Origin: Nitrospinota bacterium
GTDB lineage: Bacteria; JADFOP01
Assembly: GCA_022562795.1 (NCBI GenBank)
Contig: JADFOP010000027.1
Coordinates: 1 to 12,500, forward strand
Length of the DNA stretch: 12,500 nucleotides
Reading direction: 5' to 3'
Positions 1 to 10,036 of this stretch are shown here, one piece after another; within the stretch, counting starts at the first letter, position 1, and each line of letters begins with the position of its first letter. A model generated the notes under the pieces. The model had not been told where the DNA came from. It worked only from the letters and a program-made list of their open reading frames with translations, and ran no database searches. The position numbers and the translations under genes were made by a program.

Positions 1-693
1 GAAGCCGGTCACGTCGGTCGCGGCCGATACCCCCTCCTCCACCATAGCTTCGCTCGCCCCCCTGTTGAGGGCTGTGGCCACCTGGACCATCCGCTCGACC
101 ACCTCGGGCGGGGCTTTGTCGGCCTTGATGGCGGAGCCGATTATGCCCGTGCCGATGGGCTTGGTGAGGACTAGGAGGTCGCCCGGCCTGAGCCCGGCGT
201 TGGTGACCACCCTGGCCGGGTCGATGAGGCCCGTGACCACGAGCCCGTACTTGGGTTCGTTGTCGTCAATGGTATGGCCTCCAACGATGGGGATGCCCGC
301 CTCGGCGGCCTTGTCCGCCCCGCCTCGTAGAATGGTCGAGAGGATCTCCAGTGGCAGGTCGGTGCGGGGGAAGGCGACGATGTTGAGCGCCAAGAGGGGA
401 CGGGCCCCCATGGCGTAGATGTCGCTCAGGGAGTTGGCGGCGGCAATCTGGCCGAAGTCGTAGGGGTCGTCGACGATGGGTGTAAAGAAGTCGAGCGACT
501 GCACCAGGGCCTGGCCGTCGTCGAGCCGGTAGACGGCGGCGTCGTCGGCTTTCGCCGTGCCCACGAGAACGGCGGGGTCGGTGATTGGCGGTAGGTGACG
601 CAGGACCTGCATCAGCTCGTCGGGTCCGAGCTTGCAGGCTCACCCGCCGCCGTGAGATAGCGCCGTAAGTTTGATCTTCGTCTCGTCGGTCAT
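1..693 (-). CDS. selD: Selenide, water dikinase (SelD), selenocysteine-containing, C-terminus cut by window edge
   Basis: Makes selenophosphate from selenide and ATP, the selenium donor for selenocysteine (Sec) synthesis. Reading from the ATG at 693 gives 231 codons to the window edge, interrupted only by a TGA at codon 18 (640-642). The residues around it are GGG-U-ACK, which fit the SelD active site (Cys17-Gly-Cys-Lys in E. coli), so TGA is read as Sec (U18) with the partner lysine K21. Further SelD signatures follow: TAKADDAAVYRL near residue 50, QSLDFFTPIVDDPYDFG, ANSLSDIYAMGARP, GGHTIDDNEPKYGL and finally ATDVTGF, where the window ends; family members are about 330-350 residues. A weak AAGG lies 8 bases before the ATG, and a sigma70-like promoter is at 738-766. 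Reading through the TGA gives continuous family-like sequence, which makes a pseudogene unlikely. The annotation depends on Sec insertion, implying SelA, SelB and SelC elsewhere in the genome. Confidence 0.95.
606..638 (-). promoter_or_regulatory. Bacterial SECIS-like hairpin just downstream of the selD UGA
   Basis: Directly after the TGA (642-640) the mRNA can fold into a 12-base-pair stem. CCTGCA pairs with TGCAGG, and AGCTCG pairs with CGAGCT, with only a two-base GA bulge on the 3' side. The apical loop is GACCCGA (626-620) and begins with G, as bacterial SECIS loops usually have a G among the first two positions. SelB would bind here to deliver Sec-tRNA. The loop begins 13 bases after the TGA, slightly closer than in many bacterial SECIS elements. 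All pairs are read directly from the sequence; the function is inferred from position. Confidence 0.75.
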
Positions 694-833: not shown

Positions 834-2117
834 CTAGTCACCCCCCGGCGGGGAGAACCCGGAGGGCTCCTTACTGAGGAGGCGGCCCAGCCACTCGTCG
901 CCGTCAGCCCCGCTAATCGGATCAGCCGGTGGACGGGGGGCCATGAGGGAGATGGCCCGGCCGGAGACGACGGAGGCGTTCCCGTAGCGTGCCCTAAGGC
1001 GGTCGAGGCTCTCCGATAGCGCCCAGCGCCGCGCTGGTCCTGGGTCGAGGAGGTCGAACTGGCGGCGGGCTGGGCCGAGGCCCGTGAGCGTCACCCCCAC
1101 GAGCCTAACCCGCAGGCGGCGCACGTCGAGGGACCGAAGGAGACCTACCGCCTCGGCCTCGATGCGGGCTTCATCGCCGGTGGCCTCTGGCAAAGTGGTG
1201 CGACGGGTCGCCGTGGAGAAGTCGCTGTAGCGGAGCTTGACTACTACGGTTCGCGCCTCCAGGCCAAGAGCCCTCATGGAGGTGGCCGCCCTTTGAGCGA
1301 GGGCTGAGAGGGTCGCCTCGATCAGATCGCGGTTGAGGATGTCCTCGTCGAAAGTCCGCTCCCGTCCGATCGATTTTTGCCCATCTGGGTTAGGAGAGAC
1401 GTCCGAAGGAGGGTCGAGCCCACGGGCACACCGCCAAAGCCTTGAGGCGACCGCAGGGCCGAATTTCCGCTCCAGGACCGACCGGTCGAGGGCGGCGAGG
1501 TCGCCGACGGTCTTGAGTCCGAGCCCACGGAGCGATGCTACCGTGGCCGGCCCCACTCCGGGCAGCCGTGCGAGCGGCAGAGGTGATAAGAATGCCGCCT
1601 CCTCTCCGGGGATAATCCGCAAGATTCCCTGGGGCTTGGCGAGCCCCGAGGCCACCTTGGCCATCAGGCGGCCCGGGGCCACGCCAATGGAGCAGGGAAG
1701 GCCAGCCTCCTTAAGAATCTCGCCTTGCAGCCGGGAGGCGACAGACATTGGGTGGCCGAAGAGCCGCTCGCAGCCGGTGAGGTCGAGGTAGGCTTCGTCG
1801 AGCCCCAGGGGCTCGACTTCGGGCGTGTAACGCTCGAAACAGCGAAAGACCGTTCGGGAAGCCTCGCGGTAACGCTTGAAGTTTCCCCGAAGGAAGACGG
1901 CATGTGGGCATAGGCGCCGGGCACGGGAGATGGGCATGGCCGAGTGTATCCCGAAGCGGCGGGCCTCGTAGCTTGCGGCGGCCACTACCCCTCGGCCATT
2001 TGGCGCTCCGCCTACGATAACGGGGCGGCCTGCAAGACTTCGGTCGTAAAGCTCCTCCACGGATACGAAGAAGGCGTCCATATCGACGTGGAGGATGGTG
2101 CGGGGATGGCGCTTCAG
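834..2117 (-). CDS. dinB: DNA polymerase IV (Y-family translesion polymerase)
   Basis: Error-prone polymerase that copies past DNA lesions. From the proposed start it has 427 residues. The palm begins HVDMDAFF, with metal-binding D12 and steric-gate aromatic F17. Catalytic D107-E108 sit in GLDEAYLD, matching E. coli D103/E104 at a constant offset. Helix-hairpin-helix sequence LARLPGVGPATVASLRGLG is at about 182-200. The little finger starts near KSIGRERTFDED (248-259). QFDLLD (353-358) resembles a beta-clamp-binding motif, and about 70 residues follow it. Start choice: an ideal GGAGGG (2129-2124) lies 6 bases before a CTG at 2117, giving MKRHPRTILHVDMD, the normal N-terminal length. The only other in-frame start seen upstream is a TTG at 2189, which would add 24 unrelated residues and overlap lexA. 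The gene follows lexA by 40 bases and probably shares its promoter, so it should be SOS-induced. Confidence 0.95.
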   Translation of the reverse strand: MKRHPRTILHVDMDAFFVSVEELYDRSLAGRPVIVGGAPNGRGVVAAASYEARRFGIHSAMPISRARRLCPHAVFLRGNFKRYREASRTVFRCFERYTPEVEPLGLDEAYLDLTGCERLFGHPMSVASRLQGEILKEAGLPCSIGVAPGRLMAKVASGLAKPQGILRIIPGEEAAFLSPLPLARLPGVGPATVASLRGLGLKTVGDLAALDRSVLERKFGPAVASRLWRCARGLDPPSDVSPNPDGQKSIGRERTFDEDILNRDLIEATLSALAQRAATSMRALGLEARTVVVKLRYSDFSTATRRTTLPEATGDEARIEAEAVGLLRSLDVRRLRVRLVGVTLTGLGPARRQFDLLDPGPARRWALSESLDRLRARYGNASVVSGRAISLMAPRPPADPISGADGDEWLGRLLSKEPSGFSPPGGD

Positions 2118-2123
2118 GGGAGT

Positions 2124-2129
2124 CCCTCC
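2124..2129 (-). promoter_or_regulatory. Ribosome binding site supporting a CTG start for dinB
   Basis: GGAGGG is followed by ACTCCC and then CTG AAG CGC. Spacing of 6 bases is optimal, and no ATG, GTG or TTG in the right frame lies nearby. This is the argument for CTG initiation. Confidence 0.55.
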
Positions 2130-2157
2130 ATCGTCCCTGCGAGCGAGGTGCTGTGAG

Positions 2158-2769
2158 CTAACGGTACTTCCGCAAGACTCCGATAACAACGCCCTGAATC
2201 TGGAGGTCCTCGGCCCGGACCCGTATGGGCGCCATCGCGGGATTGGCAGGCTGTAGGCGGATGTGGTCGATTTCGTGGAAGAGCCGCTTCAGGGTCGCCT
2301 CCTCGCCCTCCAGCAGGGCCACCACCACCTCGCCGTCGCGGGCCTCGCTCCGCTCCTCGACGATGACGTAGTCGCCGTCGAGGATGTGCTCGTCCATCAT
2401 GGAGCTCCCCCGGACGCGGAGCACAAAGGTTCGGCCCCGGCCGATAAGGTCGGGCGGCACGGCGATGGTCTCGGCCACTTCGACGGCCTCAAGCGGTTCG
2501 CCTGCGGCGATGAGGCCCACGAGGGGCACCTCCACCGCCTCGATCCTTGGTGTCAGCTCCTCAAGTACCTCGATGGCCCGGCTCCGGTGGGCGTAGCGTC
2601 GGATGAGCCCCTTGGCCTCGAGGTTGGTTAGGTGCTTGTGCACCGTGGCGGGCGAGGAGAGCCCGAAGGCGCGGCCGATTTCCTCTATGCTGGGGGCGTA
2701 GCCGTGGGCAGAGCGGAAGTCTGTGATGAAGTCGAGAATCTCCCGCTGGCGGCGGGTGAGCATTGACAT
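2158..2769 (-). CDS. lexA: LexA, SOS response repressor and autoprotease
   Basis: Represses DNA-damage genes and cleaves itself when RecA is activated. The 203-residue protein has the N-terminal winged helix-turn-helix (LTRRQREILDFI at 4-15, recognition region around SSPATVHKHL, 38-47). The cleavage site A89-G90 lies in LIAAGEPLEA. The catalytic dyad is S123 in GSSMMD and K161 in EATLKRLF. These positions parallel E. coli A84-G85, S119 and K156, so it should be fully functional. The start at 2769 is chosen because AAGGAGGT (2783-2776) lies 6 bases upstream. The earlier ATG at 2796 lies at or above the expected transcription start of the promoter at 2800-2828. dinB follows 40 bases downstream, forming a compact SOS unit that LexA presumably represses itself. 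Confidence 0.97.
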   Translation of the reverse strand: MSMLTRRQREILDFITDFRSAHGYAPSIEEIGRAFGLSSPATVHKHLTNLEAKGLIRRYAHRSRAIEVLEELTPRIEAVEVPLVGLIAAGEPLEAVEVAETIAVPPDLIGRGRTFVLRVRGSSMMDEHILDGDYVIVEERSEARDGEVVVALLEGEEATLKRLFHEIDHIRLQPANPAMAPIRVRAEDLQIQGVVIGVLRKYR

Positions 2770-2799
2770 CGTCGCACCTCCTTCTTGGTCGGCCATCTA

Positions 2800-9037: not shown

Positions 9038-10036
9038 TTAGAAATGCAACTGACGAATGGTGATTCCGGCTTCTTTGAGGAGCGCCTGGGCGCGGGCTCC
9101 AAGGGGGTAGCTCTCGTTGTATATTACTTCGGCAATCCCGGCGTTGATTATCATCTTGGTGCACATGAGACAGGGCGAGTATGTGGAATAGAGCGTGGCC
9201 TCCCGCACGGAGATGCCGTGGTAGGCCGCCTGGGTGATGGCGTTCTCCTCGGCGTGGGAGCATAGGCATTCTTCCAGGGCGGTGCCTGCCGGGGCGAGGT
9301 CGTTGCACCGGGGGCAGCCGCCCTCGTTACAGTTGCGGGTTCCCCGGGGGGTGCCGTTGTAGCCGGTGGAAATTATGCGCCGGTCTTTGACGACGACGGC
9401 CGCCACCCTGCGCTTGATGCAGTTTGAGCGGTTGGAGACGACCTGGGCGATGCTCATGAAATACTCATCCCACCCGGGACGTGTGGACCCCTGGAGCAGC
9501 GAGCCGACCAGCCGGTCGATTCGTCCGTAGAAGACCTCCAGAGTCGAGTCGTTCGCAACGATGTGGTCGGCCATCTCCTCGCAAGGTATAAGCTGCTGGC
9601 CTCCCGCCTCAGTGCTTTCGAGCTCGGCCTCCTCGAGCGTTCTGAAGGCCTCCAGGCTCTGAGCCTCGGCCTCGCGGCCTCGCTCCAGGTTGCGCTCGAA
9701 GCGGACCTCAAGAGGAGCCCCCACGGCGACCAGGATGAAGCCCTCGCGGCTTCGAAGCGCCTCAACCTCGGCGGGGTGGCGAATTGAGTCGATTACGTAG
9801 TGCTTGTTGGGAGCCAGGCGGGCCAGGATCCGCTCGGCCAACACCGCCGGACCGTAGGTGGCCCTAAGCTCCCTTCCCGCCTCGATTAAGCGCTCTCTCG
9901 TAATCGGCTCTCCGCTGGTGCGGAGCTCCTCTCGGATGACGTCAGAGAGAGAGTGTGCCTCGAAGCTCTTACGGGCCAAGTAGTCGGCCATGGCGCCTTT
10001 GCCGGCGCCATTTCGTCCTGTCAGACCGATAATCAT
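9038..10036 (-). CDS. Fusion of a P-loop nucleotide-kinase-like domain with dCMP deaminase
   Basis: 332 residues in two parts. Residues 1 to about 180 resemble dephospho-CoA/NMP kinases: MIIGLTGRNGAGKG P-loop (G7 to K13), VIDSIRHPAEVEAL (81-94) as the second conserved strand, and an Arg-rich lid-like segment near 111-125. The residue after GKG is Ala15, where adenylate-kinase-type loops carry Thr. Residues 187-332 are a complete zinc deaminase: RPGWDEYFM, IISTGYNGTPRG (221-232), NCNEGGCPRCN (235-245) with extra zinc-type cysteines, HAEENA (H261, E263) and PCLMC (C289, C292). It converts dCMP to dUMP for thymidylate synthesis; the N-terminal part may bind a nucleotide as a regulator or be a kinase. 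The ATG at 10036 has no clear Shine-Dalgarno. The gene lies between the FYDLN gene (49 bases) and def (29 bases), probably in one operon. Confidence 0.9.
   Translation of the reverse strand: MIIGLTGRNGAGKGAMADYLARKSFEAHSLSDVIREELRTSGEPITRERLIEAGRELRATYGPAVLAERILARLAPNKHYVIDSIRHPAEVEALRSREGFILVAVGAPLEVRFERNLERGREAEAQSLEAFRTLEEAELESTEAGGQQLIPCEEMADHIVANDSTLEVFYGRIDRLVGSLLQGSTRPGWDEYFMSIAQVVSNRSNCIKRRVAAVVVKDRRIISTGYNGTPRGTRNCNEGGCPRCNDLAPAGTALEECLCSHAEENAITQAAYHGISVREATLYSTYSPCLMCTKMIINAGIAEVIYNESYPLGARAQALLKEAGITIRQLHF

Follow-up and report, generated by a model that had tools for sequence, protein, structure and literature searches.

The window analysed here, 12,500 nucleotides from the start of a contig of a Nitrospinota bacterium, begins with a minus-strand frame that resembles selD and contains one TGA. 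The locus raises the question of whether this TGA encodes the catalytic residue of a Sec-containing SelD, and of whether the genome has the genes for decoding it. It is well known in bacteria that SelD can itself be a selenoprotein with an active-site residue encoded by TGA, and Sec-containing SelD ranks second in spread among the prokaryotic selenoprotein families.

A selD gene with one in-frame TGA

The gene fragment and its internal stop codon are located as follows.

693 to 1, minus strand: first 231 codons of selD, predicted to encode a Sec-containing selenide, water dikinase (translation, TIGR00476, PDB entries 3u0o and 2yye)
640-642, minus strand: TGA codon 18, predicted to be read as Sec (opposite Cys in the alignment with SelD 3u0o; forms UxxK with Lys21)

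The frame starts at the ATG at 693 and is open to the window edge apart from a single in-frame stop, the TGA at codon 18, in the context SHGGG-U-ACKLGP. With Cys put at codon 18, the translation matches the NCBIfam selD model TIGR00476 with 313.8 bits (cut-off 125, E 1.2e-93), which bears out a preliminary description that had read this frame as SelD from the sequence alone. That description proposed aligning the read-through translation with SelD proteins. The structures 3u0o and 2yye align with it from residue 4 or 7 through residue 231, and the alignment with 3u0o (residues 4-231, E 2.3e-55) takes in nearly all of the part encoded in the window. Sec18 falls opposite Cys and Lys21 opposite Lys in the 3u0o and 2yye chains, so that U18-A-C-K21 corresponds to the (U/C)xxK catalytic motif; SelD 3u0o differs from the window protein in having Cys in place of Sec at the catalytic position. 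UxxK is the motif listed for Sec-containing SelD in a 2026 review (PMC13188914).

The window begins at base 1 of its contig (C27), so selD is cut by the assembly itself and not only by the limits of the window, which covers the 5′ two-thirds of the gene. The genome is assembled in 84 contigs (2.15 Mb, 97.1% complete). Sec-containing bacterial SelD (TIGR00476; PMC13188914, PMC1794560) is a common family with a catalytic Sec in the N-terminal loop, a UACK motif, and a hairpin 3′ of the UGA; the window gene shows no difference of substance from it, the gene being split by the contig end. The window protein is an ordinary bacterial Sec-type SelD. It is not novel, and the preliminary description recognized it correctly.

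Codon 18 among SelD homologues

We compared 110 SelD loci (29 from a genome panel, 80 from named genomes, and the window's own). The codon aligned to position 18 is TGA in 55 loci, TGC in 35, and TGT in 20, and no other codon occurs. Chance is excluded as an explanation for the position of the TGA, because exactly this codon is TGA in half of the homologous genes and a Cys codon in the remaining 55. The SelD of Nitrospiria bacterium isolate Hainich-H52-bin057-1 (L075; 70% identity over residues 6-231) has its TGA at the same codon as the window gene but a different upstream gene.

These counts bear on two other readings of the TGA. It is highly improbable that the codon arose by a sequencing error or really ends translation, with a functional protein made from Met28 or a gene that has become a pseudogene. 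The frame from Met28 is open, as such a protein would have it, but a start there would drop both the catalytic Sec and Lys21, the TGA is found at the identical codon in 55 homologous genes, and the SECIS-like hairpin described below is specific to TGA genes. We reject an altered genetic code in which TGA specifies an ordinary amino acid, a reading with next to no probability: one in-frame TGA within a conserved gene could be taken this way, but it is the sole TGA of selD and sits exactly at the Sec site, translation table 11 gives full-length products for the neighboring genes in the window, and a dedicated tRNA-Sec is present.

In three panel genomes (G003, G032, and G047; L026, L028, and L029) a SelD-like domain lies within frames of ~745 codons and has Cys, not Sec. 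These may be oxidoreductase-SelD fusions.

A SECIS-type hairpin downstream of the TGA

Two hairpins are predicted just 3′ of codon 18.

596-614, minus strand: bacterial SECIS-type hairpin UGAUGCAG-GUC-CUGCGUCA (model scan and fold)
605-639, minus strand: competing, more stable hairpin directly 3′ of the UGA (-20.8 kcal/mol)

The bSECIS model (PMC13188914) calls for a loop of 3-9 nt with G at loop position 1 or 2, an upper stem of 4-16 bp, a distance of 16-37 nt from the UGA, and an energy of at most -7.5 kcal/mol; in our scan, stems had to be unbroken over 4 bp or more. The hairpin UGAUGCAG-GUC-CUGCGUCA agrees with all of these constraints in the scan, having an 8-bp stem, a 3-nt loop starting with GU, a position 33 nt past the UGA, and an energy of -9.0 kcal/mol. 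Folding of 596-614 gives -11.0 kcal/mol (z -2.5).

A hairpin within the constraints is found in 33 of the 55 TGA genes, among them that of the window, and in 0 of the 55 Cys genes (Fisher p 2e-13, a nominal value given the relatedness of the genes and the many Bacillota in the Cys set). The best hairpin has the same 33-nt spacing as in the window in 19 TGA genes. The 42-nt stretch from codon 18 is more structured in the TGA genes than in the Cys genes (mean z -1.35 vs -0.34, Mann-Whitney p 5e-6), a difference not seen when the stretch is taken at any of five other offsets in these genes.

The hairpin predicted to be the window's most stable (605-639) differs from the one that conforms to the SECIS model (596-614). 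It has a z of -4.0 in a shorter stretch, and only 13 nt separate its loop from the UGA, below the 16-37 nt of the model. An Rfam scan of the window gave zero families above threshold, a result that is weakly informative because bSECIS elements vary.

The identification of the window's selD as a selenoprotein gene, as the preliminary description had it, is supported by homology, by the pairing of Cys and Sec at the catalytic position (55:55 between TGA and Cys genes), by the SECIS-like hairpin, and by a tRNA-Sec in the same genome. We infer from these sequence features that the UGA would be decoded as Sec in vivo.

Gene finding at the TGA

Ordinary ORF listing gives two frames in this region.

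1-612, minus strand: ORF for selD from Met28, without Sec (open ends allowed)
266-643, minus strand: spurious overlapping ORF in another frame

The gene had been described as hidden from standard gene finding. This is not the case: the ORF at 1-612 (204 aa, Met28 start) scores 279.4 bits by itself against the selD model (cut-off 125), and being recognized as SelD, the gene would be called and merely truncated at its 5′ end. What plain ORF calling loses is the first 27 residues of SelD, the active site and its Sec included. The accompanying claim, that ORF calling breaks the gene or reports a false frame at 266-643, holds in that this ORF exists and matched no family in a Pfam search; the true frame is listed as well.

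The C-terminal part of SelD

With the C-terminal end of the most similar named SelD as the query, the remainder of the gene was located in the same genome, on contig C45 (15,940-16,257, minus strand). This piece, the last ~105 codons, is open to a normal stop and is followed by a short conserved gene. In a congener (G001) the corresponding SelD end and the same downstream gene are found at the edge of contig C770. Alignment with complete SelDs indicates a gap of about 11-12 codons between the two pieces, which are open over 231 and ~105 codons. The dN/dS between the C-termini of the two species is about 0.25, as expected for a working gene, which points to purifying selection on this part of SelD.

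On the same contig (C45:15,900-17,041; L195, L198) the reading frame of the SelD C-terminus is continuous with that of the N-terminal half of a PAS sensor kinase, the two meeting at GGCGTGGCC. The join motif is short and suits the kinase (AGGVA) and SelD (a predicted SGVAVEV) alike. We set aside a real kinase-SelD fused gene because the motif fits both partners and the downstream gene matches the one at the SelD end of the congener. The join is more likely an assembly chimera, and it may be a true rearrangement.

Genes for Sec decoding

The genome contains an intact tRNA-Sec gene (selC) on contig C37 (Rfam RF01852, 77.6 bits; anticodon TCA in ARAGORN); a single acceptor-stem base, at which pairing is kept, distinguishes it from that of the congener. 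We found zero matches to selA in this 97.1% complete assembly, and nothing over the 242-bit cut-off for selB. We discounted two selB candidates below that cut-off (401-aa frames with 175 and 174 bits) as being EF-Tu-like, and this genome alone lacks the SelB C-terminal domain among six genomes tested. The selA search works as a method, as it gives matches over the cut-off in 28 of the 60 panel genomes (the congener and G002 included) and the adjacent selA and selB of the congener pass both curated cut-offs. The claim that the whole Sec machinery is encoded thus stands for tRNA-Sec, whereas the assembly contains neither selA nor selB. SelB and SelC are given as signatures of Sec decoding in PMC1273633; of these, the genome has half, SelC being present and SelB not found.

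In the congener, selA and selB are adjacent (about 3.3 kb) and lie beside scpA. The contig with scpA in the window's genome (C34) carries other genes at this place, and the dehydrogenase gene located beyond selB in the congener is on a small contig (C78). Where the congener has selA-selB by scpA (C277:5870-9271; L155), the window's genome carries two ORFs, one plastocyanin-like and one unknown (C34:1-1805; L176).

The absence of selA and selB very probably reflects one unassembled gap and not loss, given that the two genes are neighbors in the congener and that the assembly visibly fails inside selD. The preliminary description had held that absence of selA, selB, or tRNA-Sec from the complete genome would speak against its reading; the first two are absent from this assembly, which in formal terms counts against that reading, but the third is present, and the gap is the likelier cause.

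A real loss of selA and selB in the lineage, with tRNA-Sec and the TGA-containing selD as relics and SelD either a 17-residue stub or not made, is unlikely. Such a loss is in keeping with a 97% complete assembly that has tRNA-Sec yet neither selA nor selB, with the rearranged selA-selB neighborhood, and with a SelD C-terminus that adjoins a sensor-kinase fragment on C45. However, the N-terminal SelD frame runs undamaged through 231 codons, the dN/dS between the two species shows purifying selection on the C-terminus, and tRNA-Sec is near-identical in them although their aligned DNA is about 77-86% identical. A single gap can also take both genes, as these are adjacent in the congener and the assembly is demonstrably broken within selD. 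It is more doubtful still that the genome combines tRNA-Sec and an intact Sec-type selD without canonical selA and selB, either through unrecognized Sec factors or as a trait in mid-loss with SelD as the sole selenoprotein.

Our preferred explanation, with a probability of about 0.88, is an ordinary bacterial selD with a catalytic Sec, whose UGA is recoded via a downstream hairpin, in an organism that has selA and selB and in which both have fallen in an assembly gap. We infer that the two genes exist in the organism. In the mechanism that we propose, SelB carrying Sec-tRNA-Sec would bind a hairpin just 3′ of the UGA at codon 18, and the ribosome would then read this codon as Sec. The resulting SelD would convert selenide and ATP to selenophosphate, which SelA would need to make Sec-tRNA-Sec. 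SelD would depend on its own product, because SelA uses selenophosphate for the Sec-tRNA-Sec that decodes the UGA of SelD.

The window adds one more Sec-containing SelD and is a reminder that plain ORF calling drops the N-terminal part in which the active site lies. The case would gain interest only if a complete genome likewise lacked selA and selB, because a Sec-type SelD with no means of decoding its own UGA would be a paradox.

Other selenoproteins and users of selenophosphate

The preliminary description expected the organism to have other selenoproteins, and none was found among the formate-dehydrogenase-like genes of the genome. We rejected formate dehydrogenase as a second selenoprotein, as no match contains an internal in-frame stop and none is over the cut-off. 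A query with E. coli SelU (selenouridine synthase) also gave no match in the genome, a weak test since the query is one sequence.

Every selenoproteome that had been examined at the time contained FdhA or SelD, FdhA was present in 67 of 75 Sec-using organisms, and several species have SelD as their single selenoprotein (PMC1794560). SelD may be the only selenoprotein of this genome, a known situation. Given the result for the formate-dehydrogenase-like genes and these single-SelD species, further selenoproteins are neither shown nor required.

Other genes of the window

Two genes lie upstream of selD.

834-2189, minus strand: dinB-type DNA polymerase (IMS family), upstream of selD and in the same direction
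2158-2796, minus strand: lexA, upstream of dinB

The lexA gene and the dinB-type polymerase gene (834-2796 together, minus strand) are thus directly upstream of selD and co-directional with it. Further along, the window encodes a protein whose N-terminal domain is AAA/kinase-like and whose C-terminal domain is a deoxycytidylate deaminase (9038-10036, minus strand); it resembles the model for anti-phage dCTP deaminase, with a score far under the cut-off (154 vs 400 bits).
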